64,000 nt of DNA from an uncultured archaeon A07HR60 (lineage in GTDB: Archaea > Halobacteriota > Halobacteria > Halobacteriales > Haloferacaceae): NCBI GenBank assembly GCA_000496235.1, contig KI543227.1, positions 45,084-109,083 on the forward strand, written 5' to 3'. Shown here in pieces: positions 31,845 through 52,108 of this stretch (positions are counted from its first letter, which is position 1; each line of letters opens with the position of its first letter). The translations under genes were made by a program, and so were the position numbers. The notes under the pieces are model-generated. The model saw nothing but the letters and a program-made list of their open reading frames with translations. It ran no database searches and was not told the DNA's origin.

Positions 31845-33315
<1,471 letters not shown>

Positions 33316-33469
33316 ACAGACCGAGACTCACTCACACCCACGACCGCCGTGAGCGTGAGTGAGCTCACATCTGCAGACTGACGTGACACTCCGTCGCGTC
33401 AGCCTGCAGTGCGATGCAGTGCGGTGCAATACGATGCGATTTGGCGTGTGTCCGTGTTCGCCGATTGGT

Positions 33470-33499
33470 CGTGCCGGGCACTTTCGAACCATCGAGGCT
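33470..33499 (+). other. Pre-16S processing stem, 3' half of bulge-helix-bulge
   Basis: Complement of 31710-31739. CGTGCCGG (33470-33477), GCAC (33478-33481), a three-base bulge TTT (33482-33484), then 33485-33499. One A-C mismatch (31720 with 33489) interrupts the outer helix. The cut here would release the 16S precursor about 168 bases beyond the mature 3' end. Confidence 0.85.
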
Positions 33500-33527
33500 T
33501 ACACTGCGGCTCCACTTACGTGGAATT

Positions 33528-33586
33528 TGGTCCGATACTCGACGGGAGTCCCATCATTGGGTCCGGTTCGACTCCGGATGGACCGA
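33528..33586 (+). pseudogene. tRNA-like relic in the 16S-23S spacer
   Basis: A perfect T-arm (TCCGG TTCGACT CCGGA, 33562-33578) with canonical TTCGA loop is followed by TGGACCG and A. A seven-pair acceptor stem forms with TGGTCCG at 33528-33534 (two G-U pairs). A 4-bp D-like arm (ACTC/GAGT, 33537-33549) is present. The anticodon arm is shrunk to 3 bp with a 4-base loop, and the total is 59 bases instead of about 73. It lies between the 16S and 23S processing cuts, where most haloarchaea carry tRNA-Ala. It has no usable anticodon loop, so I call it a degenerate tRNA. Confidence 0.6.
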
Positions 33587-33699
33587 TCTACGGCCACCGT
33601 TAGGTGGCTTGACGAATCTATGCACCATCCCGGGTAACCGTGGTTGGGAAGGGACGAACGCGCACTGCCTGCACTACAGGCGCGTGATGAGACCGTGTA

Positions 33700-33729
33700 T
33701 ACGTGCGATCCAGGCGTCCACTGGACCCG
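33700..33729 (+). other. Pre-23S processing stem, 5' half of bulge-helix-bulge
   Basis: TACGTGCGATCCAG (33700-33713) pairs perfectly with 36687-36700, GCGT (33714-33717) pairs with GCGT (36680-36683, two G-U), and CTGGACCCG (33721-33729) pairs perfectly with 36671-36679. This leaves a three-base bulge CCA (33718-33720). The outer helix resumes with GACCGTG (33691-33697) and CACGGTC (36708-36714). Canonical BHB for EndA. Confidence 0.9.
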
Positions 33730-33750
33730 TTTTCCGGGTCCGATCATATT

Positions 33751-36655
<2,905 letters not shown>

Positions 36656-36670
36656 GGATCGACCCGGAAA

Positions 36671-36700
36671 CGGGTCCAGGCGTTATCTGGATCGCACGTA
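36671..36700 (+). other. Pre-23S processing stem, 3' half of bulge-helix-bulge
   Basis: CGGGTCCAG (36671-36679), GCGT (36680-36683), three-base bulge TAT (36684-36686), CTGGATCGCACGTA (36687-36700). Partner of 33700-33729; the expected EndA cut lies about 30 bases after the mature 23S end. Confidence 0.9.
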
Positions 36701-36782
36701 TTGACTTCACGGTCAGTTGCGCGAGTGCAGGCGCGCTCGTCACCGATACCGGCGTCCGACGGTTCGACTCCGTCGATCGGCA

Positions 36783-36904
36783 TAAAGGCGGCCAGAGCGG
36801 CGGGGACACACCCGTACCCATCCCGAACACGGAAGTTAAGCCCGCCAGCGTTCCGGCCAGTACTGGAGTGCGCGAGCCTCTGGGATCACCGGATCGCCGC
36901 CTCT
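36783..36904 (+). rRNA. rrf: 5S ribosomal RNA
   Basis: About 122 bases beginning near TAAAGGCGGCCAGAGCGG and ending GGATCGCCGCCTCT, with the conserved CCCATCCCGAACACGGAAGT loop and terminal helix GGCGGC/GCCGCC. It follows the 23S gene by about 130 bases as in other haloarchaeal rRNA operons. Confidence 0.95.
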
Positions 36905-36922
36905 CATTCATACTTCATTTCA

Positions 36923-36956
36923 TTTTTTCGCCGAGCGACAGCAGCATCGCTCGGCG
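36923..36956 (+). terminator. T-run plus hairpin after 5S rRNA
   Basis: Six consecutive T (36923-36928) follow the 5S gene, immediately before a perfect 10-bp hairpin (36929-36938 with 36947-36956, CGCCGAGCGA/TCGCTCGGCG). Archaeal RNA polymerase stops at T-runs, so this probably ends much of the rRNA transcript. The following 280 bases (36957-37235) show no gene. Confidence 0.6.
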
Positions 36957-37235
36957 TTCTGTATCCAGACGTGAGTACTGACCGTCACGGTACACGACCT
37001 AACACTGATATCAGCTTGTATGCCGACTGTCGACTGACTAGTCTACCCAACTCAGCGTTTCTGTGTTCAGGGGGATCACACACGTTAGCTGAATGGACAT
37101 TCTGTGTCGGTAAGTCGTAGGGTGACCCTCCGCGCCTGAGTGTTACTGATCACTAACGGACGTACGTACTGACGATTATGGGGTTCTGGCGGGGACCGCT
37201 ACACTTATTCGCATTACTAGACTAATCGCGATTGC

Positions 37236-37311
37236 GCCAAGGTGGCAGAGCCCGGTCATATGCGGTGGCCTGCAGAGCCGCTCTACGCCGGTTCGAATCC
37301 GGCCCTTGGCT
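37236..37311 (+). tRNA. tRNA-Cys (GCA)
   Basis: A 76-base cloverleaf: acceptor GCCAAGG/CCTTGGC, D-arm with a large loop, anticodon loop CTGCAGA with anticodon GCA at 37272-37274, T-arm with GGTTCGAATCC, and discriminator U73 as required for cysteine. No intron; CCA is not encoded. tRNA-Cys after 5S rRNA is the usual haloarchaeal operon end, but the T-run after 5S suggests it may have its own promoter. Confidence 0.95.
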
Positions 37312-40026: not shown

Positions 40027-40899
40027 TCAGGCGAAGAGGCCGGCTATCATCCGGACAGCGGCGGCATTTCGCCCCCACTCGCCGAACATGAACCGGACAT
40101 GGCGCCAGCCATCGCGGAAACTCTCCAGTTCTGCTTCCCCGACACGGGGGTGATACGTGATCGGAACCTCCTCAACCTGGAGATCCTCGCGAGCGGCGTT
40201 GATCAGCATCTCTGACGCGAATTCCATCCCCGTCGTCTCCGGGTCAATATCAGCGAGTGCGTCGCTCGTGAACACGCGGAAGCCGGAGTGAGCATCCGAG
40301 AATTCAGCGTCGAACAGCGTGTTCAGCAGTCGCGTGAGCATCGGATTGCCGACGTACTGGTGGAGCGGTGGCATCGCCTCGGGTCGGATCTCTCCGTCCA
40401 ATCGGGAGCCGATCACCATGTCGGCATTCGTCTCCAGCATCGTCCGAATGAGTTTCGGCAGTTCCGAGAAGTCGTACGTGGTGTCGGCGTCACCCATGAC
40501 GATGATATCGCCGCGTGCCTGCGTGAAGCCGTCTAGATAGGCGGCCCCGTAGCCACTGCGGTCGGGTTCGGTGACGATAGCGCCGTGATTCCGGGCAATA
40601 TCAGGTGTCCTGTCGGTCGAGGAGTCGGCCACGATTATCTCACCAGAGACGTCCAGCTCTTGCAGTGCTCCGATGACCGCTTTTAGTACCTCTGCGATAC
40701 CGTCCTCCTCGTTGAGCGTCGGGATGACGATCGAAAGGGTTGGGTCGAACGATGATGCTGGGCCACAGAGTGTGAACTGATTAGTTTCAGATTCGAGGGC
40801 GTCCGTACCAGACTCGTGGGCGGCCTCGAGAGTTGGAGCTTCAGTGCTGATATCTTGGGTTGATTCTGTCTGCTGACGCGGTGTCTGCTGCCGTGACAT
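40027..40899 (-). CDS. Glycosyltransferase family 2, dolichol-phosphate-mannose-synthase-like
   Basis: 290 residues. After an about 50-residue polar N-terminal extension the GT-A domain starts LSIVIPTLNEEDGIAEVLKA. The nucleotide-sugar aspartates lie in VADSSTDRTPDIA and the DxD motif is IVMGDADTTYDF. The DPM1-like HSGFRVFTSDAL and a C-terminal RHVRFMFGEW segment follow. Such enzymes load a hexose on dolichol phosphate for archaeal N-glycosylation or glycolipids. No transmembrane anchor is obvious at the C-terminus. Donor and acceptor are not deducible. Convergent with the doubtful ORF at 39742. Confidence 0.9.
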   Translation of the reverse strand: MSRQQTPRQQTESTQDISTEAPTLEAAHESGTDALESETNQFTLCGPASSFDPTLSIVIPTLNEEDGIAEVLKAVIGALQELDVSGEIIVADSSTDRTPDIARNHGAIVTEPDRSGYGAAYLDGFTQARGDIIVMGDADTTYDFSELPKLIRTMLETNADMVIGSRLDGEIRPEAMPPLHQYVGNPMLTRLLNTLFDAEFSDAHSGFRVFTSDALADIDPETTGMEFASEMLINAAREDLQVEEVPITYHPRVGEAELESFRDGWRHVRFMFGEWGRNAAAVRMIAGLFA

Positions 40900-40983
40900 A
40901 CACGAATATACACGGGTGATACATGTGTTTTGACAGTAGCCTCGACATCACCCGGACCGGTGGGGTAAAGACCACCGACGCAC

Positions 40984-43311
40984 TCACGCGGCGGGAAAAC
41001 AGAGATGAACAGTAGTGCCGTCGCCCGGGGCAGACTCGATCCACATCGCTCCATCGTGGTGATCGACAATCCGCCGACACAGTGTCAGCCCCATGCCGGT
41101 GCCGTCCTCTTCGGTCTGGCCGAGACGCTCGAACACCTCGAACGCTCGCGAAGCGGCATCTGTATCGATTCCGATACCGTTGTCTGCGACACACACGTGA
41201 TGCCACGGACCGTCACTATCGAGTGACACTCGCTCTGGCGTGTCGAGGGTCGCCACCGGGTCTCCCGGCGTCACAGAAATGTGGGGGTGAGACGAGTGGT
41301 TGTACTTCAGTCCGTTATCGATGAGATTTTGGAACAACTCGATAAGCAGCTGCTCGTCACCCTCGACCGTCGGGAGAGGATCAGTGGTGATGGTGGCACC
41401 ACTATCGTCGATACGGACCGTGAGGTTGAGTTCAGCTTTCTCTACGACCTCGTCGAGTGCCGCGGGTTCGAATTCACCGCCGGAAGAATCGATCCGGGAA
41501 TACTGCAGTAACGCGTTGATCATCGACTGCATCCGCTCTGCGGCACCGACGGCGTCTTCGATGAGTGTCACCGCCTGCGCGTCGAGTGTCTCACCGTCTT
41601 CGTAGAGGTCGTCCAGAAGCGTGAGGTAGTTGCTGACCGATCGGAGTGGCTCTTTGAGGTCGTGTGAGGCCGCGTGGGCGAACTGCTCCAGGTCCCGGTT
41701 CGACTGTTGGAGCTGTCTGCGCGTCTGACGGAGGTCGGCTTCCCGATTACGACACTCAAGTTCGAAGCCGAGCCACTGTGTCAGCAGACTCAGGAACCGC
41801 GACTCCTCCTGCGTGAACGGTTTTTCACGCGGCTTATTATCTGTGAAACAGAGTGTCCCGTACACTTCTCCATCGACGATGACGCGCCCGCCCAGATAAC
41901 ACGACAGCCCGAATCTATCGTCTGCAGGATCTCCGTCCCACGTTTCTCGAGCATTCGTCATTCCGACAGGTTCTGGCTGTTCGATCGTTTCCCGACAGTA
42001 CGTCTCCGCGAGTGGCACCTCTGTCTGTGTGTCGAACTGAACATCACTGCCCGACGAGACTTCGAATTCGAAGCCGCCAACAGCAGGGTCGGTGTCGGTA
42101 TCGATCGCCGAAAAGAATCCGGCCTCCATCCCGATCCGCCGCCGTCCAATCTCGATCACTTTCTGCACTTGCTGTTTGAATCCGCCCTTCGTCTGAGGGG
42201 AGATACCGAGCAAATCTCCGATCGCCGTCTCTCGGCGGACCCGCTCTGTCACGTCACGATACACCCACGAGTGTGCGCCGCCGCCCGGAAGCTCGTACGG
42301 GACGTAATCACGTGCAACCGTCCGTGAGCCGGTGAGCGCGAGTTCTTGACCCTTTTCGACGTGCCGATCTCGAGCGAGTTGGTTCGTTCTGGCGACGAAC
42401 TGTTCTGGCTCCGCGAAGCTGTCTTTCAGCCGGTCGATCATGTCATCGGACTCCGCCCCCACGAGCGTCTCGGGTGGCGCATCTATCTCGAATAACTCGA
42501 GCAGGCGCTGATTCACCGCGAGAACATTACGGTTCGAGTCCTCGACGAGCACTCCCGTTGGGAGGCTGTCGAGGACCGTCTGCAGGACGGGATTCGTCTG
42601 TTCGTGCTGGACCCGGGTCTCCCGGAGCTTCTGTTCGGCCGTCCGCTGGGCATCTCGCTTCTCGCCGGGTGAAGGGTAGTTTCCATCTGTCGCCTCCTCT
42701 AGTTTGTCGACACTGATGCCGTGAGCGGCTGCGGCGGCTTCCTTCGCCAGTGTGTAAGTGCCCTCGCTGTCTGTGACACTCAACTCGCGTGGGATAGTAT
42801 CGAAGACGGTTCGGAGCGTCTCGTGGGGCCGTCCGGCACTGGTATCAGTCCATCTCGCGCAGCACACGTCTGCGAGCGTCTCGTTCAGCGGTTCGAGTGC
42901 AGCGATCATCTCGGCGTGAAGCGGTCCGTCGTCACTGACGATGACGAGGACACCGAAATCTGGCAAGTCGAACACGTGGTAGTGGGCTGGCCCGTGGGTG
43001 GCCGTGATCGGCAGTCGCTCACGGAACGCAGTCTCGTCTGCGGCGCCGTCGTGAGTGAGGTCACCTGTCGCTGCCTCAACCACATCGGTAGCTGTTGGGT
43101 CCGTCGAGACACTCTCTACAAGTTGATACACCGGCACTGTCGGCTCACTGTCCCGTCTGAAGATGCCACCTGCCGCACACTCGAGCTGGCGTAGATACGC
43201 GGACAGCGCCGCTTGTGTGGCCTCGGAGAGTGTCTCCCCCCGGCCGATCGAAACTGCAATGTGGTAAAGACGCTGAGCGCGCTCTGGGGATGGGCGTGAT
43301 GACTCGCTCAT
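40984..43311 (-). CDS. Multi-domain sensor histidine kinase (GAF/PAS/GAF-HisKA-HATPase)
   Basis: 775 residues without membrane helices, so a cytosolic sensor. An N-terminal GAF-like domain (about 1-155) is followed by two PAS-like segments (LRTVFDTIPRELSVTDSEGT and LDSLPTGVLVEDSNRNVLAV), a GAF domain (GFFSAIDTDTD to YGTLCFTDNKPREKPF) and a coiled linker. The phosphoacceptor helix is FAHAASHDLKEPLRSVSNY, and the ATPase domain has N-box LFQNLIDNGLKYN, G1 VADNGIGID and G2 GTGMGLTLC. It is intact and should autophosphorylate. No response regulator is adjacent; receivers lie 6-8 kb away at 49-52 kb. Confidence 0.92.
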   Translation of the reverse strand: MSESSRPSPERAQRLYHIAVSIGRGETLSEATQAALSAYLRQLECAAGGIFRRDSEPTVPVYQLVESVSTDPTATDVVEAATGDLTHDGAADETAFRERLPITATHGPAHYHVFDLPDFGVLVIVSDDGPLHAEMIAALEPLNETLADVCCARWTDTSAGRPHETLRTVFDTIPRELSVTDSEGTYTLAKEAAAAAHGISVDKLEEATDGNYPSPGEKRDAQRTAEQKLRETRVQHEQTNPVLQTVLDSLPTGVLVEDSNRNVLAVNQRLLELFEIDAPPETLVGAESDDMIDRLKDSFAEPEQFVARTNQLARDRHVEKGQELALTGSRTVARDYVPYELPGGGAHSWVYRDVTERVRRETAIGDLLGISPQTKGGFKQQVQKVIEIGRRRIGMEAGFFSAIDTDTDPAVGGFEFEVSSGSDVQFDTQTEVPLAETYCRETIEQPEPVGMTNARETWDGDPADDRFGLSCYLGGRVIVDGEVYGTLCFTDNKPREKPFTQEESRFLSLLTQWLGFELECRNREADLRQTRRQLQQSNRDLEQFAHAASHDLKEPLRSVSNYLTLLDDLYEDGETLDAQAVTLIEDAVGAAERMQSMINALLQYSRIDSSGGEFEPAALDEVVEKAELNLTVRIDDSGATITTDPLPTVEGDEQLLIELFQNLIDNGLKYNHSSHPHISVTPGDPVATLDTPERVSLDSDGPWHHVCVADNGIGIDTDAASRAFEVFERLGQTEEDGTGMGLTLCRRIVDHHDGAMWIESAPGDGTTVHLCFPAA

Positions 43312-43495
43312 ACCGGAGCGCGTCCTTCGTCGGCAATTGGGTTGGCGTCACTCGCCGCTGGTCGCGTGGGTCTGTCCCGTGACGAGAGCGTCGCTGGGTG
43401 GTGTTCCCGTTGCATAGTAGTCGCGTGAGTATCATTTTGGGCGGGAGACATTTGAGGCCAGCGGGAACTCACCGACGCGCCCTCGCTGCATCTCG

Positions 43496-43535
43496 TCTGA
43501 TCTGGTCTGATCTGGTCTGGTCTGGTCTAGTCTCA
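43496..43535. repeat. Pentanucleotide repeat tract touching the glycosyltransferase stop codon
   Basis: Eight consecutive 5-base units on the plus strand: TCTGA, TCTGG, TCTGA, TCTGG, TCTGG, TCTGG, TCTAG, TCTCA. The last unit contains the complement of the TGA stop of the gene at 43533. A repeat number change would leave the coding part intact unless the last unit is lost. The rest of 43312-43495 shows no gene. Confidence 0.85.
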
Positions 43536-44732
43536 TCTCGTCGCCGCGTTCTCGGCGCTCGAGCGATTCGGCTCCGACCGGTGTCGTGCCGGGGAATCCT
43601 GTAAGACCGTCTGGTACATCTCGAGTGTTCGGTCGGCGATGCGATCCCAGTCGAACTGTGCGGCACGTTGCTCTGGGATCGTGTCCATCTCGGTTCCCGA
43701 CAGCGCCGTTTTGAGAGCGCCCGTCACCGCTCCCACCGCCGGCGCGACGACCAGTCCCGCGTCTCCAATGACTTCCGAGGCTGCACTCCGGGGGTGATCG
43801 GCCCCGATCACCGTACAGCCCGCTGCTAGCGCCTCGATATACGTGATCCCGAAGCCTTCCCGCTCGGACGGCGAACAGAACACGTCAGCAGCGTGCATAT
43901 GTCCTAGCACGTCTTCGTCGGCGGGGAGGAAGCCGAGAAAGTCGATCCGGTCACGACAGCCCGTCTGCTCTGCGAGCCGTTCGAGTGTGTCTCGGTCAGG
44001 GCCATCTCCGATGATTCCCATGCTGATATCGGGGTTCGTCCGTGCGACACGAGCGAATGCTCGGATCGCTACGTCGAGGTTCTTTTCGGGAATGAGTCGC
44101 CCGGCGTACAGCACGTCGTATCCGTCGGCCGCAGCCTCAACCGTCTGTATGTCGTCCACGTCGATTCCGTTCGGGATAACGTGGGTGTGTTCCCGGTCCT
44201 GCCCGATCTGTGTGAGCCGCCGGGCGGTCAGCTCCGAAACGGCGACCGGATGCTGGTCGACTCGCGCCGTGAATCGCTCGACTAATTTACCGACCGGCGA
44301 GAGGGTCTCGAGGTACTCTTGCCAGTACTCCATCCAGACCTCGTGCCAGGTCGTCACCAGCGGTGCCGTATCGGCAGGGACTGTCGCTTTGGCGACCGCC
44401 GCCCCGAGCACGGGAAAGTACGGGAATACCGACGCGTGCACGATATCGTGGTCAGTGAACGCCTGGCGTAGCGCCGGGACGGATCGCAGGCCAAAGTCGA
44501 CTGCCTCTGCGATCGAACGGCGGTCACCGGCGTACAACTCGCTCTCTGGGGCGATGGCGTGATAGCTGACGTTCTCACGCTGGATCTGGCTGGGCCCGTC
44601 CCAGTAGTGGCGACCGTACTGGGTGACAGAGTGACCATCCGCGGCGAGTCGGCGGGCGATCTCGTAAATCCGCTTTTCTGCGCCACCCGTCACCTCTGGG
44701 TAGACCACGTTGGAGACGAATGCGATGTCCAT
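43533..44732 (-). CDS. Glycosyltransferase family 4
   Basis: About 399 residues from ATG 44732 (MDIAFVSNVVYPEVTGGAEK); a GTG at 44741 would give three more residues and a GTGA overlap with the upstream stop. The N-terminal acceptor domain has the GGAEKRIYEIARRLAADGH motif, and the C-terminal domain has DVLYAGRLIPEKNLDVAIRA and the E-x7-E motif SEREGFGITYIEALAAGCTV. It is the last gene of a minus-strand operon with sulfatase-like enzyme, repeat protein and flippase, so it probably builds the exported glycan. The acidic/Arg-rich C-terminal tail ends at a pentanucleotide repeat. Confidence 0.9.
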   Translation of the reverse strand: MDIAFVSNVVYPEVTGGAEKRIYEIARRLAADGHSVTQYGRHYWDGPSQIQRENVSYHAIAPESELYAGDRRSIAEAVDFGLRSVPALRQAFTDHDIVHASVFPYFPVLGAAVAKATVPADTAPLVTTWHEVWMEYWQEYLETLSPVGKLVERFTARVDQHPVAVSELTARRLTQIGQDREHTHVIPNGIDVDDIQTVEAAADGYDVLYAGRLIPEKNLDVAIRAFARVARTNPDISMGIIGDGPDRDTLERLAEQTGCRDRIDFLGFLPADEDVLGHMHAADVFCSPSEREGFGITYIEALAAGCTVIGADHPRSAASEVIGDAGLVVAPAVGAVTGALKTALSGTEMDTIPEQRAAQFDWDRIADRTLEMYQTVLQDSPARHRSEPNRSSAENAATR

Positions 44733-44737
44733 CTGTC

Positions 44738-46165
44738 TCACTCCGTGTAGCCGAGTGCCTGCAGTCGGTGACTCACGCGTTCTTCTACACCATCTGCCGT
44801 CGTCTGCTCGCCGCCGGCCGGGTCCGGTTCACCCCCCTCAACCGGGTATCCGTCGGCCTCGATGTGGTCGGTGAGCAACGAGGTCCCCGCGGGGTCTTCC
44901 TCGGCGTCGACTTCCAGGTCGCCGGTGGCCGTATTCACCTGCGCGTGGGCAGTCCCACCGGCCCGGTAGCTGGCATACCGGCGTATCGCATCGTCTTCAC
45001 CCTCGCCACGGGCCTGCGCGAACACGACACGGTCAGGATCGGGTTGGTGGGCCGTGTCCGCGAGCGACGTGCCGGGACCACGGTAGTCGACATCGAACGC
45101 CTCCGCGATGGTCGGGGCGATGTCGAGCGTGCTGACGGGTGAGTCGACCGTCGGGCGGCTACTCACTCCCGCGCCAGTGGCGATGAGCGGGACGTGTGTG
45201 AGCACGTCTGGCAGAAAACGTGGGTGCTCGTAGTAGCCCGGTTCGCCGAACGCCTCGCCGTGGTCGGCAGTGAGCAGAAGGAGCGTCTCGTCTCTGATCC
45301 CGAGTTGGGTGAGTTCCTCGAGCAATCTGGCGATGCTCGTGTCGAGGGACGCTATCTCGGCGGCGTAGAGGTCATCCAGGAGTTGTCGGTCTCGCTGTGA
45401 GATCGAGCCTGGCTCTCGTCTCGCCCGTTCGTACAACTGTGTCGGATCCAGGTCGCCGTCCGCGTTCTCGAGATAACGGCTCTGGAACAACGCCGATGGC
45501 TCGTACGGCCCGTGAACGTCCATGTAATGAAGCCAGGTGAACGTCGGTCTTCCTCCCGCAACGGCCTGTGAGCGGAGGAATTCGACACCCCGTTTAGTGA
45601 TCGTCTCGGCCGGTGCGTAGTGTCGATCGCGAAGTTTGTCGATTGCTCGCTGCGCGAGCGCCGTCAGCGGGTGTCCGCCCGCGATCATGTCGTCGTCGAA
45701 GTGGTCGAACCCATCGCCGTAGCCGAACCCTTCCGAGACGAACGGGTTAGAGTGGATACCGGCCGAGCGAACCGGCGTCCCCTGCAGCGATGTGGCGATG
45801 GTCGGGCTGTCCAGCCGGTAATTATCGGTGGTGGCGGCACTCGGGTACTGTCCAGAAAGGAGTGCTGGGACGGCTTCGCGAGTGTGAGAACTCGGGCTAT
45901 GCGCCCGGCCAAACCGGATACCAGCTGTTGCGAGTCGGTCGATAGTCGGTGACAGGTCGCGGCTCGAGCCGTGACAGCCGAGATAGTCGGCGCGAAGCGC
46001 GTCGATCGATAGTAGGATAACGTGCGTCGCCGCGGCGGGATCAAAAGTCGGCCCACGGCAATGGTCGTCGGGAGAACGTTCGGTCTCGGGTGCGCGGGTT
46101 GACTGTGCGTCCTCAGCCGGCCGGACTCTCCCGGCATCTGTACCTATGTCTGAGTGACTGGTCAC
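44738..46165 (-). CDS. Alkaline-phosphatase-superfamily (sulfatase-like) enzyme
   Basis: 475 residues, no signal peptide visible. The fold starts VILLSIDALRADYLGCHG with metal-binding Asp. The nucleophile region is SPSSHTREAVPALLSGQYPS, where a Ser or Thr would serve instead of the C/S-x-P-x-R needed for formylglycine, and the second metal site is LLTADHGEAFGEPGYYEHP. This is the type of haloarchaeal sulfatase-like enzyme found in glycan clusters, acting on phospho- or sulfo-groups (for example phosphoglycerol or phosphoethanolamine transfer). It lies 72 bp after the repeat protein gene and just before the GT4 gene in the same orientation. Confidence 0.85.
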   Translation of the reverse strand: MTSHSDIGTDAGRVRPAEDAQSTRAPETERSPDDHCRGPTFDPAAATHVILLSIDALRADYLGCHGSSRDLSPTIDRLATAGIRFGRAHSPSSHTREAVPALLSGQYPSAATTDNYRLDSPTIATSLQGTPVRSAGIHSNPFVSEGFGYGDGFDHFDDDMIAGGHPLTALAQRAIDKLRDRHYAPAETITKRGVEFLRSQAVAGGRPTFTWLHYMDVHGPYEPSALFQSRYLENADGDLDPTQLYERARREPGSISQRDRQLLDDLYAAEIASLDTSIARLLEELTQLGIRDETLLLLTADHGEAFGEPGYYEHPRFLPDVLTHVPLIATGAGVSSRPTVDSPVSTLDIAPTIAEAFDVDYRGPGTSLADTAHQPDPDRVVFAQARGEGEDDAIRRYASYRAGGTAHAQVNTATGDLEVDAEEDPAGTSLLTDHIEADGYPVEGGEPDPAGGEQTTADGVEERVSHRLQALGYTE

Positions 46166-46237
46166 GTCAATAGGGACAGCTGCGACATGTACGGGTGACC
46201 GTGAAGCTGTGAGTAACCCAGGAGTGTAACTCAGGAG

Positions 46238-47377
46238 TTACGACTTCGAATCCCGAGCCGAGAGGAGTGTTTCTGCGGTTTCGACACACTTCATCGCGGT
46301 CGCTTCCGCCACGGGGTCCGGGCTAAACGCGGCCTGTTCGTAACAGACGCGAAGCTGGTTGAGCGGCAGGGCCGTTGCAGCTGCGTCGGCGGTCGACTCC
46401 CAGGATCTCAGGAGACCGTCGTATCTGCGGACCCGCTCGTCGTGATCAGTCGCGTTCGCGAGTGCCTGGACGGCGAGGATGACAGCCTGGTCAGGTGACC
46501 CGTCGCTAAGCGCGGCTCGTGCGTCTGTGAGCTGTCTCGGCTCGGCTGTGGTCGCGTCGGCCGACGCGGCCGCGGCCATCGTCTCACCGCCGTCACTGGC
46601 TCGTGGCTGGGCGCGAGAGCGAACGATCCTGGGCTGAAGTGTGGCTGGGTACGCGCCCGTCTCCGGCCGCGGCTCCGAGCTGGGAAAGCGGCGGTACAGA
46701 GCCGCCGCGATAAGCCCGACCGTTGTTAAAGCGAACAGTGCAACGACGAGTGGCCACCACCACTGGCCCGTCGACGCCTGTTCATCGATGGTGACGTTGA
46801 CCACTGGTCGCTGTGTATCGGATGGCTCGCTGCTAGCGTCAGTTGCCTCACCTGCGCTAGCTGTCGTCTCATTCCCTTCTGGAACACTAGCTGTCGTCTC
46901 ATTCCCTTCTGGAACACTAGCTGTCGTCTCATTCCCTTCTGGAACACTAGCTGTCGTCTCATCGCGGCTGCCACTCACACCCGCCGCGACGGTCGTGTTA
47001 GACTCTGCTGTGTCGGTCGTGTTCGGAACGGTGGGCTCTGAGGAGTCGTTCTGCTGGGTAGCCGGCGTCTCCTCGATCACAACTGTCTCCGACTGTGTAA
47101 CCTCCACGGGCTTGGGACAACCGAAGATCGAACACCACAGCTGGTCTAAGACTGGCCTGTCACCGCCGATATTTATAATACCGTCGTCGGTCGCACTGGC
47201 ATTTTCGGTCTCACCGTCGATTTGCGCGGTCGGGAGAGCCGTCACAGTGCCGCTGGCTGCAGCGACTACCAGGACCGCGAGACACAGCGTCACGAGTGAC
47301 ATTCGCAATCGCCGGCGAGACAGCCCGGGCCAAGCGGCGCTCGTTAGATCCTCGTTGTCTAGCGTGTCAGTGTTCAT
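46238..47377 (-). CDS. Secreted/membrane protein with Thr-rich repeats, one TM helix and DUF4129-like tail
   Basis: 379 residues from MNTDTLDNED, whose ATG overlaps the flippase stop (ATGA). A hydrophobic segment (RMSLVTLCLAVLVVAAASGT) acts as signal or first helix. The extracellular part holds many N-x-T/S sequons and three exact copies of a ten-residue unit ETTASVPEGN, each creating a new sequon. A TM helix (WWWPLVVALFALTTVGLIAA) and a cytosolic domain of about 100 residues like DUF4129 (ARAALSDGSPDQAVILAVQA) follow. It probably is a glycosylated envelope protein served by the same operon. The open frame upstream to 47794 is antisense-type noise within the flippase gene. Confidence 0.7.
   Translation of the reverse strand: MNTDTLDNEDLTSAAWPGLSRRRLRMSLVTLCLAVLVVAAASGTVTALPTAQIDGETENASATDDGIINIGGDRPVLDQLWCSIFGCPKPVEVTQSETVVIEETPATQQNDSSEPTVPNTTDTAESNTTVAAGVSGSRDETTASVPEGNETTASVPEGNETTASVPEGNETTASAGEATDASSEPSDTQRPVVNVTIDEQASTGQWWWPLVVALFALTTVGLIAAALYRRFPSSEPRPETGAYPATLQPRIVRSRAQPRASDGGETMAAAASADATTAEPRQLTDARAALSDGSPDQAVILAVQALANATDHDERVRRYDGLLRSWESTADAAATALPLNQLRVCYEQAAFSPDPVAEATAMKCVETAETLLSARDSKS
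46861..46962. repeat. Three exact 30-bp tandem repeats plus a partial fourth
   Basis: Copies at 46861-46890, 46891-46920 and 46921-46950 are identical, followed by 12 matching bases. The length is a multiple of three, so changes in copy number keep the reading frame and add or remove an ETTASVPEGN unit with one N-glycosylation sequon. Identity of copies indicates recent expansion. Confidence 0.95.
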
Positions 47378-48915
47378 GAGGTCGGTGAGTCCGCGGTCTG
47401 GTTCCGGACGAGCCACAGCAGCTTGATCCCTGTTCGTTGTTCGAGCTGGCGGAATGCCCGTCGCTCCACCGGAGACAGATCTCCCGCGAGTAACAACGAG
47501 ACCACCGCGCTCAGCCCGACCACACACCCCGCGAAGGCCACTGTGACGACCCCATCGGCACTGCCGGTCAGAGTTCGCACGCCGAGCGCCGTCACTCCGG
47601 TGAACAGGACGATCCACGTCGTCGCTCTCGAGAACGGGTGGATACCGACCGCCCGGTAGATGGCGGCCACCTCGAGTCCGTTGTACACGGCGTATCCGAC
47701 CGCGGTGCCGATAGCTGCCCCGACGATCCCGAACCGTGGGATCGCCCAGAGATTCACGAGCACGTCGACAAGAACACCAACGGCCGCCGCCCACAGTTCC
47801 ACCCGCGGCCGGTCGATAGCCTTCACTGTGTCACCGTCCAATCCGGTCAGTGCCCGCACGAATAAGCCACCCGTGAGCACGGCCAGTGCGGGGGCTGCCG
47901 GGCTGTACGCTGGGCCGAGCAACAGCCGTACGATCGAGTCCGCATAGCAGACGAAAATTAGCGCCAGTGGGAGTGTCGCCGTGACGATCCACTTCGTCGA
48001 GCTCGTGAACAGCTCTCCCAGATTGTCGATCCGGCTCTCGCTGAACTGCCGAGTCGCGAGGGGGAGGAACGCAAAACTGAACGCCGAAAGGACGAATGTC
48101 GTGGACTGTCGAAGAGGCTGAATCGCCCGATAGTACCCCACCTCAGTGGACGTGGCGAAGACCCCGATCATCAGCACATCCAGTGTCGAGAGGAACAGAA
48201 ACAACGACGCCGAGGCAGCGAGCGGCCAGGCTTGGCCCCACACTGTCCGGAGCGACTCACCGGCGGGAACACTGACGATCGGGCCAGAGCGGTCACGCTG
48301 GCGGAATCCCAGATAGCCAGCCCCGAAAATGAGGATCCCAGCAGGGTAGCTCAACCAGTACGCGGCGGCCCCGAGCAGCTCTGCGCCGACTGCGACTGTG
48401 GCGCCGAGGACACCGATACCGAGGACTCGTGGCGCGAAGTGCCGCACGAGTACTGCGGCTCTCGAGTCGGTGTCGGCACGGATCGCCCCGTATGCCACCT
48501 CTCCGAGCGGGTACAGGAGGCCAAACGGGAGCAGCCACGGCACGAAGTTGGCGAGCGCGGGGTCACCCAGGATAGCGGCGACCTGATGACGGCCGAGATA
48601 GCCGCCTGCGACGACCAGCCCACCGACGCCGCTGGCGATTACCAGCCCACTGCCGACGACCTCTCCGTCAGCACCCGCAGCGCGGTCGTTGAGCGTGCGT
48701 GTCACGGCGTCGCCGATGCCGTTCCCCAACAACATCCCAACCGCGTACACGACCGTGTACGCGAGAGCGACCGTCCCGTACAGATCGGGCGCGAGTGAGC
48801 GAGCCAGATACGTCTCGGCGACGAGCGCGAGCGCACTGCCGACGACAATGCCGACGAGAATTGTCGATGCGCTGCCGCCCAGCGAGGCAGACTGTTCTTC
48901 GGTGCCGCCTTCCAT
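47374..48915 (-). CDS. Polysaccharide/lipid-linked oligosaccharide flippase (Wzx/PST type)
   Basis: 513 residues with about 14 membrane helices and the MOP-superfamily N-terminus (ALVAETYLARSLAPDLYGTVALAYTV, here split over helices 1-2). A characteristic LYGTVA motif, the central SASLFLFLSTLDVLMIG and the second-half YGTAVGYAVYNGLE-like segment are seen. Such proteins flip lipid-linked glycans across the membrane. First gene of a four-gene minus-strand operon with the sequon-rich protein, sulfatase-like enzyme and GT4. Divergent from the regulator gene at 49113, so the 197-bp gap must contain both promoters. Confidence 0.88.
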   Translation of the reverse strand: MEGGTEEQSASLGGSASTILVGIVVGSALALVAETYLARSLAPDLYGTVALAYTVVYAVGMLLGNGIGDAVTRTLNDRAAGADGEVVGSGLVIASGVGGLVVAGGYLGRHQVAAILGDPALANFVPWLLPFGLLYPLGEVAYGAIRADTDSRAAVLVRHFAPRVLGIGVLGATVAVGAELLGAAAYWLSYPAGILIFGAGYLGFRQRDRSGPIVSVPAGESLRTVWGQAWPLAASASLFLFLSTLDVLMIGVFATSTEVGYYRAIQPLRQSTTFVLSAFSFAFLPLATRQFSESRIDNLGELFTSSTKWIVTATLPLALIFVCYADSIVRLLLGPAYSPAAPALAVLTGGLFVRALTGLDGDTVKAIDRPRVELWAAAVGVLVDVLVNLWAIPRFGIVGAAIGTAVGYAVYNGLEVAAIYRAVGIHPFSRATTWIVLFTGVTALGVRTLTGSADGVVTVAFAGCVVGLSAVVSLLLAGDLSPVERRAFRQLEQRTGIKLLWLVRNQTADSPTS

Positions 48916-49101
48916 TCATATCAGTATACCCTGGGCACAAACACACATATGCCACTACTTCGAGGTAACCGGACCATCCGAGGACAACCTCACCTGTACA
49001 GATTATGTCGGGGGGCCATCTATTGGAATACAGCAAGACGGTTATCTTCACACACATATGTCTACATCACCAACACGCGTCAAATGCGATTGATCGCCGA
49101 C

Positions 49102-49132
49102 ACACTCGAATCATGAGCGAACACTCGAATCA
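49102..49132. repeat. 12-bp direct repeat across a regulator start codon
   Basis: ACACTCGAATCA occurs at 49102-49113 and again at 49121-49132, 19 bp apart, flanking and including the ATG at 49113. A direct repeat at the start of an HxlR-type regulator gene could be an autoregulatory site, though part of it is coding. Confidence 0.6.
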
Positions 49133-50021
49133 CAATCTAGCTGACTCCGTCGCGCTCGAGCTGCTCGGTACGAAGTGGAAACCGCGGATCATCGTCACGG
49201 TGTCCGAGACTGGGGCCATAGGGTTCGGCAGCCTGCAGAGCCGACTCGATAACATCTCGAACAAGGTACTCTCGAACAACCTGGATGATCTCGTCGAGCG
49301 TGACGTGCTCAACAAGGAAGTGCTGCAAGAGTCGCCACGCCGCGTCGAATTCACTCTCACTCCTGCCGGTGAGGACCTGTACACGATTATCGAGGCGACT
49401 GCTGACTGGGACGACCAGTACGTCGAGGGCTACGGGCTCCCGCGTGTGCTAATCGTCGACAACGACCCTCGGCAGGTCGAACTGCTCAACGCCTGGCTCA
49501 GCACCGAGTACGATGTCGTCACTGCGACCGACGGTGAATCAGCCCGTACGGCGCTCGATGACACCATTCAGGCCGCCATTCTGAACCGACATCTCCCCGA
49601 TACGACCGGCGAGGCGATTATCGAGGAGGCTCGTGCCGTCGGAATCTCTCCTCCGACCGCGTTTCTGAGTGCGGTAGATGTCTCGGTGTCTGCGGCTGAA
49701 CTCCCCGCGGATCTGCTCCTCACGAAGCCAACGACACAGGAGGAACTTCTCGGAGCAGTGAAACTTCTCGACCGGATGAACGACTTCTCCGACCTTCGCC
49801 GGAAGATACGCGCGCGAGAACACCGACTCAAGTACGTTCGAGAGACTCAGGGGCCGGCTGTCAAGACGACCGCAGAGTACGAACAGGCTGAAGTGACCCT
49901 CGAAGAGATGCGAGACGAGTGGCAAGATCAACTTGAGCAGGATGAGGCCTGGCGAAAGTTTTCGAACGCTGACTCGATAGAGGAACTACTCGGTCAAGTA
50001 CCATCCGCCCCGGATGACTGA
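49113..50021 (+). CDS. HxlR winged-helix / pseudo-receiver / HalX fusion regulator
   Basis: 302 residues from MSEHSNHNLA. Residues about 8-100 are an HxlR-type winged helix (ALELLGTKWKPRIIVTV, FGSLQSRLDNISNKVLSNNL, PRRVEFTLTPAGEDL). Residues about 110-220 are a receiver: acidic pocket VLIVDNDP and conserved Lys LLTKP are kept, but the phosphoacceptor position reads AILNRHLP, Asn for Asp. The C-terminal 75 residues are a HalX-type coiled helix. HalX normally follows a plain receiver; a DNA-binding HxlR domain in front is unusual and would give this haloarchaeal architecture a clear output. It lies 6 bp before a stand-alone receiver gene and divergent from the flippase operon. Confidence 0.85.
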   Translation: MSEHSNHNLADSVALELLGTKWKPRIIVTVSETGAIGFGSLQSRLDNISNKVLSNNLDDLVERDVLNKEVLQESPRRVEFTLTPAGEDLYTIIEATADWDDQYVEGYGLPRVLIVDNDPRQVELLNAWLSTEYDVVTATDGESARTALDDTIQAAILNRHLPDTTGEAIIEEARAVGISPPTAFLSAVDVSVSAAELPADLLLTKPTTQEELLGAVKLLDRMNDFSDLRRKIRAREHRLKYVRETQGPAVKTTAEYEQAEVTLEEMRDEWQDQLEQDEAWRKFSNADSIEELLGQVPSAPDD

Positions 50022-50027
50022 CCGACC

Positions 50028-50465
50028 GTGACCCCGACCCCTTGCGAGAGTTCGATCGCCCAGCCCTGTGAGATCTCGTATATCGAGGACAACGACGCCG
50101 ACGCAGTGATGATCGAGACGGCGATACGGCAGAGTGGGTGTTCTCGGAATCCGACGCGATTCGCCGGGTCCGAAGAATTTCTCAGCCACCTCGACGGAAT
50201 ACGGCGGCCTGCCCCGTGGCATCATGGTGCCCTCTTGATCGACATTAATCTCCCGTCTGGGTCGGGGTTCGACATCCTCGAGCGAGTTCGGCAACAGTAT
50301 GGCCCCGGCGAGTTGCCTGTCGCTATATTCAGTGGTGGGGCCCGCGAAGCAGAAGTCACCCATGCCTACGAACTCGGGGCGAATGTGTACATCCACAAAC
50401 CGATGGCGTATCCCGAGTACCGGCGCCGCATCACCGGACTGTGCGGCTTCTTCTCTCGGCTGTAG
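50028..50465 (+). CDS. Single-domain response regulator
   Basis: 145 residues from a GTG six bases after the previous stop. The receiver is intact: YIEDNDADAVMIE acidic pocket, phosphoacceptor Asp in LLIDINLPSGSG, SGG switch residues and HKPMAYPEY Lys. The insert before the phospho-Asp strand (IRRPAPWHHGA) is of the Rcp1/CheY-like type used as a shuttle between histidine kinases. Probably cotranscribed with the upstream HxlR-receiver-HalX gene, so it may relay phosphate where that protein cannot. Confidence 0.88.
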   Translation: MTPTPCESSIAQPCEISYIEDNDADAVMIETAIRQSGCSRNPTRFAGSEEFLSHLDGIRRPAPWHHGALLIDINLPSGSGFDILERVRQQYGPGELPVAIFSGGAREAEVTHAYELGANVYIHKPMAYPEYRRRITGLCGFFSRL

Positions 50466-50956
50466 ACTACCCCCGAGAGTGGCTGAGTGAGCGTCCCGGC
50501 CACCCACCGCGGCCCCGATGACGGGCCTCAGCCTATCTGCTCGGGGCCACACTCTGCCGTCGGGAGCCGGTCTCAGGTGCGGAAATCAGCCTGCGTCCCG
50601 CTGGCACGAGATGCCTCCGTGACTCGACTCCAGAGAGTATTTGTGGGTCATCCGGTTGCAGCGGTCCGTCGCCGTCGGCCCCCCTGTGAATCGTGGAGGG
50701 GCCAGGGGCGAGACGGGTCCTCTCGCCTGATCGCGAGACGCCCAGCGAAAATCACCGTGCCAGAGGCTCGCACTGTCCCGACCGGGGAGATACAACCCCC
50801 CGCGTATTAGTAAATGTTCACCTTCTGACCGGGCAGGGTAGGGGTATTGGTGCCCCTGAAGTAGCCGCCTGCTGTGGGTTTTAATCGAAGGTGAATACTG
50901 AAGCAATTCAGCGCCCAAGTAACCATATCGACAGCGGTGGTACATAGATCCAACTC
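50466..50956. other. Intergenic with a separated inverted repeat
   Basis: No gene is convincing. TGTTCACCTTC (50815-50825) and GAAGGTGAATA (50887-50897) form an 10-of-11 inverted repeat about 60 bases apart, the second arm beginning just after TTTTAATC (50879-50886), a possible TATA box for the gene at 50957. This could be an operator pair. Confidence 0.45.
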
Positions 50957-52108
50957 GTGGCCCCATCACCGACCGAGAGGCGAGTCCTACTAGTAGAGGA
51001 CAGTGATAGCGATGCGCAACTGTACGCGACGATGATGCAGGAACTCCAGGCAGACACCGTCAATAATCCGACTGTGACCCCGACAGACGTCGACCGAGTC
51101 TCATCGCTGGAATCTGGCCTTTCCCACCTTACTGGCACGAAGACGACGTATGACGTGGTTTTGTTGGATCTAAATCTCCCCGATTCTGCCGGGCTCGAGA
51201 CACTTGACAGTGTCACTGAGATTAACTCTTCCGTGGCGATTGTAGTTTTGACTGGTGTTGGTGACCAGCAACTCGGCCGAGACGCGGTTGACAAGGGAGC
51301 CCAGGATTTCCTGATCAAAGCACAGGTCACCCCGCGGGTGCTGGATAAGGCGATTTCGTATGCTCAGACGCGGAAAGCCCAGACAGATGCGATTCAACAG
51401 CAGCGAAACGAGTTGCAGGTGCTCAACTGGGTAATCCGGCACGAGATCCGCAATGATGCCGCGATTATCTTGGGGTGGGCAAACGAACTGATGCCCGACT
51501 CCGCGAGTGAGCGGCGCTCGCTAAACCGGATCGAGGACGCAAGCGACCACATCGTGAAATTGACCAAATCTGTTGGAGGGCTTGTCAACACGCTTGAAGA
51601 TGACAAAGCAGAGCTGAACGCCATTGAAATGACCTCGGTGTTAGAGGCCGAAGCGACACGATTGCAGGAAACCCACGATTCGGTGACCATCACGGTCGCC
51701 GACGGATCCCCCGAGAGCGTCTCGGTGAGAGCAAACGAGTTCCTCGGGACTGTGTTCCGGAACGTGTTATCGAGCGCAATCGAGCGGAACGCCGCTGACG
51801 GCCAGCACATAGAAATTAGCGTCCAGCCCCCGACGAGGACCGAGAGTGAATCCACGATCGACCCCGTCTCCACTGATGGCGGTGATTCCGACACGTACGT
51901 GTGGGTCAGCGTCAAAGACGACGGGGAGGTGATTGACCATCTTACGAGCGAGAGTCTCACGACCACATTAGACACCAGAGAGGCAGACGAGACACATATT
52001 GGCCTGTATTTCGTCAACCGGTTCATGACCCAATACGGGGGTGAAGTCCGGCTCGAAGACGACGCGCCCGATGGAAAGATCATAAGACTCGGCTTCGTCC
52101 CGGCATGA
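50957..52108 (+). CDS. Receiver-histidine kinase hybrid (REC-HisKA-HATPase)
   Basis: 383 residues from GTG 50957. An N-terminal receiver (VLLVEDSDSDAQL, phospho-Asp VLLDLNLPDSAG, Thr VLTGVG, Lys LIKA) is followed by a helix with the phosphoacceptor His (NWVIRHEIRNDAAII). A HATPase follows with N-box VFRNVLSSAIERNA, while the G1 box reads VKDDGEVID rather than DxGxG and the G2 region is short (THIGLYFVNRFM). The order REC-kinase with no sensor is common in haloarchaea. The degenerate G1 box makes catalytic activity uncertain. Separate promoter from the two regulators upstream. Confidence 0.82.
   Translation: MAPSPTERRVLLVEDSDSDAQLYATMMQELQADTVNNPTVTPTDVDRVSSLESGLSHLTGTKTTYDVVLLDLNLPDSAGLETLDSVTEINSSVAIVVLTGVGDQQLGRDAVDKGAQDFLIKAQVTPRVLDKAISYAQTRKAQTDAIQQQRNELQVLNWVIRHEIRNDAAIILGWANELMPDSASERRSLNRIEDASDHIVKLTKSVGGLVNTLEDDKAELNAIEMTSVLEAEATRLQETHDSVTITVADGSPESVSVRANEFLGTVFRNVLSSAIERNAADGQHIEISVQPPTRTESESTIDPVSTDGGDSDTYVWVSVKDDGEVIDHLTSESLTTTLDTREADETHIGLYFVNRFMTQYGGEVRLEDDAPDGKIIRLGFVPA

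Follow-up and report, generated by a model that had tools for sequence, protein, structure and literature searches.

A haloarchaeal HxlR-receiver regulator with asparagine at the phosphoacceptor position beside a REC-kinase with a degraded ATP-binding domain

What controls a DNA-binding response regulator whose receiver has no aspartate to take up phosphate? The question is raised by the gene at 49113-50021 of the window (the whole stretch of 64,000 nucleotides of haloarchaeal DNA analyzed here, taken from a 14-contig draft genome of 2.9 Mb that is 82% complete), which an earlier note had read as an unusual three-domain protein that may form a relay with its two neighbors.

Domain composition of the regulator

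The regulator gene and its parts are as follows.

49113..50021, + strand: HxlR-REC-HalX(-like) regulator, 302 aa (intact ORF, translation, Pfam HxlR and Response_reg, homologues)
49161..49427, + strand: HxlR winged helix-turn-helix, residues 17-105 (PF01638, E=2.7e-18, 66 bits, cut-off 20.8)
49446..49760, + strand: receiver without phospho-Asp, residues 112-216 (PF00072 Response_reg, E=2e-9, 38 bits, cut-off 30.2; alignment)
49761..50018, + strand: HalX-like helical tail, residues 217-302, under Pfam detection (PF08663 in homologues, hhalign, helical hairpin)

The start at 49113 is supported by the congener, Haloferacaceae archaeon LUM.70 (a MAG, 62% complete; locus L070), because the upstream extension of the congener gene has diverged and has no upstream ATG. 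The two regulators are 93% identical, and that of the congener keeps the phospho-Asp. Beyond HxlR and Response_reg, no Pfam domain scores above its cut-off in the protein; the nearest solved structure to the N-terminus is HxlR itself (7bzd, E=2.5e-13), and those nearest to the middle part are OmpR-type receivers. Pfam HalX does not match the C-terminal 85 residues at E<=1, nor does PF08663 find a match in the whole window genome at E<=10. Seven of nine homologues with the same architecture do match PF08663 (best 1.1e-14), and a profile-profile comparison (hhalign) of the tail with REC-HalX tails gives P of about 1.5e-4 at a probability of only about 50%. The tail is named for these two resemblances and is best called a diverged HalX tail, an assignment that remains tentative. 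The AlphaFold model of the regulator is poor (two sequences, mean pLDDT 41) and is confident only for the helical hairpin of the tail. Hence, of the three domains that the note had placed in one chain, the first two stand on their Pfam matches and the third becomes HalX-like, by resemblance to homologues and profiles only.

The view that this architecture is unusual has to be given up. HxlR-REC-HalX is given as a typical haloarchaeal architecture in Table 2 of Galperin et al. 2018 (PMC5847659), where HalX and REC-HalX are also among the haloarchaeal architectures and many HalX domains escape Pfam, and we collected 86 relatives, some of which share a genome with another; the earlier note had itself named such a prior description as grounds for dropping its view. 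The architecture was thus rejected as a novelty. The regulator is patchily distributed, being present in 13 of the 171 genomes of the window's family (E<=1e-35). A search of genome contigs with the regulator protein alone matched only the congener and a distant Clostridium receiver, and the viral contigs searched held no relatives.

The receiver active site and the recency of its changes

Four features of the receiver bear on its chemistry, each placed by alignment with homologues.

49458..49463, + strand: acidic pair Asp116-Asn117 (Asp-Asp in the congener, L235 and L222)
49584..49586, + strand: Asn158 (AAC) at the phosphoacceptor position (GAC, Asp, in the congener)
49668..49670, + strand: Ser186, the conserved receiver Ser/Thr
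49725..49727, + strand: Lys205, the conserved receiver Lys

The alignment puts Asn158 at the phosphoacceptor position, as had been claimed from the sequence, and with the Pfam HxlR match this bears out the joining of a non-phosphorylatable receiver to a DNA-binding domain. The claim that the rest of the pocket is retained holds for Lys205 but fails for the acidic pair: Asp116, Ser186 and Lys205 are kept, and the second acid, in the pair that takes the place of CheY Asp12/Asp13, is Asn117. Asn occurs at this position also in L135, L143 and L234, which retain the phospho-Asp. Lacking both the phospho-Asp and one of two pocket acids, the window receiver falls outside the canonical response regulators and within the Asp-less receivers, or pseudo-receivers, since it has a receiver fold by sequence and no Asp at the phospho-site. 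Asp-less receivers account for up to 10% of archaeal REC sequences; Halobacteria are one of the two classes richest in them, and Asn, at 16%, ranks second among the residues that replace the phospho-Asp (PMC4395418). The phospho-Asp is retained in 78 of the 86 relatives, the remaining eight having Ala (five), Asn, Ser or Glu; this loss rate matches the archaeal figure of PMC4395418, and Asn158 was rejected as a feature of a clade. On the architecture and the Asn alone, the finding is ordinary.

The syntenic regulators of L235 and L222, from another haloarchaeal family, are 67-69% identical to that of the window. Because these two and the congener all have Asp at both places, D117N and D158N arose recently in the window lineage. 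In this comparison of one genome per species, with Asn158 known from a single genome of the window species, Asn158 appears as a recent species-level change and not as a property of the architecture. The receivers of window and congener differ at eight amino acids, and the five active-site positions account for three of these differences (P=0.002); two of the three receiver changes derived in the window lineage, D117N and D158N, are at such positions (P=0.005). The dN/dS ratio is 0.20 for the gene and 0.14, 0.25 (receiver) and 0.21 for its three parts; synonymous changes dominate, and the regulator is therefore still maintained under constraint.

Two explanations would remove the substitution as a biological fact. 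The Asn codons might stem from a mistake of assembly or consensus calling, or from a minority variant, the draft genome being of metagenome type; in favor of this, the analysis rests on the assembly (14 contigs, 82% complete), and both changes are G-to-A. Two separate active-site changes in a gene under purifying selection, beside an independently degraded kinase, are nevertheless hard to produce by error, and we consider this explanation very improbable. Deamidation would convert Asn158 to Asp in the cell and leave the receiver phosphorylated. Asn followed by Arg is not a fast deamidation site, and the residue after Asn158 is Arg, not Gly; one of the two Mg-binding acids is, in addition, also amidated. 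Although the occurrence of Asn117 in relatives with a phospho-Asp speaks for deamidation, as does the Asn-to-Asp reversion observed at the phospho-site of a receiver domain (PMC4395418), we give this explanation hardly any weight.

Neighboring genes and gene pairs across haloarchaea

Downstream of the regulator lie two further two-component genes.

50028..50465, + strand: single receiver, 145 aa, with phospho-Asp, Ser and Lys present (Pfam, syntenic homologues)
50957..52108, + strand: REC-histidine kinase, 383 aa, with a degraded ATP-binding domain (Pfam, motif alignment, faster-diverging catalytic domain)
51440..51442, + strand: His162, the phospho-His of the REC-kinase, kept (motif alignment)
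51773..51775, + strand: N-box with Ser273 for the ATP/Mg-binding Asn (motif alignment)
51917..51931, + strand: G1 box DDGEV for DxGxG (DNGPG in the sister proteins; motif alignment)

The single receiver is intact, as the earlier note described it, with syntenic homologues that are 91% identical in L070, 60% in L158 and L235 and 54% in L222; the REC-kinase is present but has lost residues of its ATP site. Its G2 reads ETH against GTG in L158 and L235, and its catalytic domain is 50% and 43% identical to those of the sister proteins, which share 70% with one another, against 69-73% for the receiver and DHp parts. The product of 50957-52108 would thus count as a pseudo-histidine kinase, a HisKA/HATPase protein without residues needed for kinase activity. 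The congener locus retains everything except the REC-kinase: similarity ends just past the single receiver (window 50772 = L070 11653), and beyond the break, at L070 12270, is an aldehyde ferredoxin oxidoreductase-like ORF. Its absence from this locus, in a genome that is 62% complete, suggests that the REC-kinase is dispensable in the congener.

That the three genes work together gains from the same order of regulator, single receiver and REC-kinase in a different family. As a conventional phosphorelay of three proteins, the proposal finds no such support, given the loss of key ATP-site residues from the kinase and of the Asp from the regulator. In L235 and L222 the trio is conserved in order and the phosphotransfer residues of regulator and kinase are intact, so the ancestor may have had a relay; in the window, however, there is no Asp on which the regulator could take up phosphate, and neither the N-box Asn nor the G1 motif is left in the REC-kinase, which makes a working relay improbable there.

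On the other side of the regulator lie further genes of a polysaccharide-type island, in which gene functions are assigned by sequence resemblance and context, Pfam having covered part of the genes.

40027..40899, - strand: family-2-type glycosyltransferase-like island gene (syntenic in L235, 76%)
40984..43311, - strand: multi-sensor PAS-GAF histidine kinase with all catalytic motifs intact, the likely partner kinase (Pfam, motifs, homologues)
43533..46165, - strand: glycosyltransferase-like and sulfatase-like island genes (ORFs; syntenic in L235, 75% and 64%)
47374..48915, - strand: flippase-like membrane protein, divergent from the regulator, candidate target (ORF, synteny)
48916..49112, no strand assigned: flippase/regulator intergenic region, candidate operator/promoter (upstream operator search)

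The sensor kinase lies 6 kb from the regulator on the opposite strand, and its homologues adjoin the module in L171, L179 and L181 and occur within the L235 island. The flippase-like protein is 71-73% identical in L235 and L222, in the same divergent arrangement. The operator search upstream of the regulator (48916-49112) returned only an imperfect palindrome, absent from the congener, and no clear conserved palindrome. In L235 (genome G324, another family) the entire arrangement is syntenic at 40-76% identity, running from glycosyltransferase, sensor kinase, glycosyltransferase, sulfatase and membrane ORF to flippase and then, divergently, to regulator, single receiver and REC-kinase; a further clade likewise has a glycosyltransferase next to the regulator/kinase pair. 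The island with its two-component genes, of about 12 kb, is syntenic across haloarchaeal families (window 40027-52108, L235 3108-16125), and this synteny, despite the patchy distribution of the regulator, suggests that the island may have been transferred horizontally.

Two observations concern the same part of the window. A complete rRNA operon (16S, 23S, 5S) with a tRNA, at 31845-37311, lies right beside the island. Within the minus-strand ORF 46238-47794, positions 46857-46962 form a perfect 30-bp tandem repeat of 3.5 copies that encodes repeated SVPEGNETTA; the congener homologue has fewer copies, and hence the copy number varies.

Kinase genes accompany these regulators widely: at 59 of 63 haloarchaeal loci the distance from the HxlR-REC-HalX gene to a histidine kinase gene is at most 3.5 kb (within 1 kb at 57), and 43 of those 59 have REC-kinases like that of the window. 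Our pair survey covered REC-kinases paired with HxlR-REC-HalX genes, and among its 61 pairs both partners are intact in 23, both are broken in 31, the kinase alone is broken in six and the receiver alone in one. The motif calls are based on alignment columns, and a few sequences with long branches (L130, L193) may be misplaced. The receiver of the REC-kinase itself retains Asp and Lys in all 61. Where a broken regulator receiver has a second kinase close by, at 15 loci, this second kinase has intact H, N and G motifs. In one large clade the phospho-His is replaced by Thr, Gln or another residue, and the receiver Thr/Ser is mostly Val.

The kinases of this large clade beside HxlR-REC-HalX genes read RTDIRND or RQDIRND for RHDIRND (L160, L161, L163, L164, L167, L168, L172, L177, L178, L180, L184, L189 and others) and retain the N-box Asn and the fused receiver as well as, for the most part, the G1 box; in bacterial HisKA domains, the rate of a missing His is 0.9% (PMC12632262). 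HATPase_c matches number just six over the 2.9 Mb of the window genome, and the polysaccharide-type island accounts for two of these. With no HalX above cut-off, this is an apparently small two-component repertoire for a haloarchaeon, in a draft that is 82% complete.

In a naive count, loss in the receiver and loss in the kinase are very strongly coupled (Fisher P=2.7e-8, first 44 pairs). The tree shows no more than four changes in receiver state and five in kinase state. Kinase loss accompanies three of the four receiver losses, namely those of an old clade, of the window and of L190/L226/L227; L182 goes against the pattern, its receiver being broken next to an intact kinase. About three joint losses are too few for significance, and tests of independent pairs on the tree, with 4-5 changes, found the joint loss not significant. 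The coupling is therefore suggestive, a lead and not a result.

The main rival to a functional reading is plain decay of the cassette under relaxed selection, in which the kinase ATP site was lost and the receiver phospho-site then drifted, leaving a constitutive DNA-binding protein without signal input. Decay is consistent with the loss of catalytic residues from both kinase and receiver on the window's own branch, with the loss of the kinase gene at the congener locus, and with the excess of kinase-only over receiver-only losses (six pairs against one), which fits a kinase-first order. Against it, every reading frame is intact, the gene as a whole has a dN/dS of 0.20 and its receiver part one of 0.25, the receiver and DHp parts of the kinase are still 69-73% conserved, and two of the three receiver changes derived in the window fall on active-site positions. 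We regard decay as possible but, on balance, rather unlikely.

Proposed mode of action and comparison with known systems

The reading that we prefer, and to which we give an even chance, is that the regulator serves a two-component cassette of a surface-polysaccharide-type island as its DNA-binding output protein and has become, in the window species, a phosphate-independent pseudo-receiver. Its ancestors would have been ordinary phosphorylatable response regulators with a REC-histidine kinase and a multi-sensor histidine kinase as partners. In the window species, D158N has removed the phospho-Asp of the receiver and D117N one Mg-binding acid, and the neighboring REC-kinase has lost its ATP-site motifs; with these losses, the regulator most likely acts without phosphorylation. 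It may be fixed in one DNA-binding state or switched by partner binding; the most plausible partners are the single receiver (50028-50465), which is intact, and the REC-pseudokinase, in which the fused receiver could still take phosphate from the intact kinase at 40984-43311. The domains, the substitutions and their recency, the conserved neighbors and the intact or broken motifs are read from sequence; we infer control by protein contact, and the divergent flippase and island genes are predicted targets, as DNA binding itself is predicted.

More tentatively still, haloarchaea may have a widespread pseudo-two-component module, in which a REC-pseudokinase with a phosphorylatable receiver and a dead kinase core stands beside an HxlR-pseudoreceiver-HalX protein, an intact sensor kinase phosphorylates the receiver of the pseudokinase, and the signal reaches the DNA-binding protein by contact; the window would be a recent, independent conversion. 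Dozens of pairs with both partners broken suggest that some haloarchaea run two-component signaling without passing phosphate to the DNA-binding protein.

The architecture and the Asp-less receivers are known; the new part is the gene context. HxlR-REC-HalX proteins now have a partner kinase that recurs across loci and, for some clades, a setting in a polysaccharide island, neither of which we found stated in the census PMC5847659. One gene pair forms a natural series from fully competent (23) through loss in the kinase only (6) to loss in both (31). One of its conversions is very recent, the Asp-bearing counterpart in the same genus being 93% identical, and the series makes direct tests with near-isogenic proteins possible.

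For the pseudokinase, the nearest known systems are pseudo-histidine kinases such as DivL. They are alike in being kinase-like two-component proteins without part of the kinase chemistry; the window pseudokinase differs in its N-terminal receiver and in having a pseudo-receiver as genomic partner, and its function is predicted only. PMC4211667 provides a precedent for a kinase-like protein that reads the phosphorylation state of a response regulator. With the HxlR-REC-HalX regulators of PMC5847659, the window protein shares domain order and lineage, with REC and HxlR above the Pfam cut-offs, but it has Asn for the phospho-Asp and for one pocket acid, and a tail too diverged for Pfam. LtrR-type HTH-REC proteins and FilR1 (wHTH-DUF1724-REC; PMC5847659) likewise carry an archaeal DNA-binding domain N-terminal to the receiver; they are without a HalX tail and are presented as ordinary two-component response regulators. 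Asp-less receivers such as RitR, with Asn53 (PMC4395418, PMC12632262), share with the window protein the Asn at the phospho-site, the kept Lys and a fused DNA-binding domain, whereas the window protein is set apart by a different, N-terminal DNA-binding domain, by a very recent loss, and by the degraded kinase that adjoins it.
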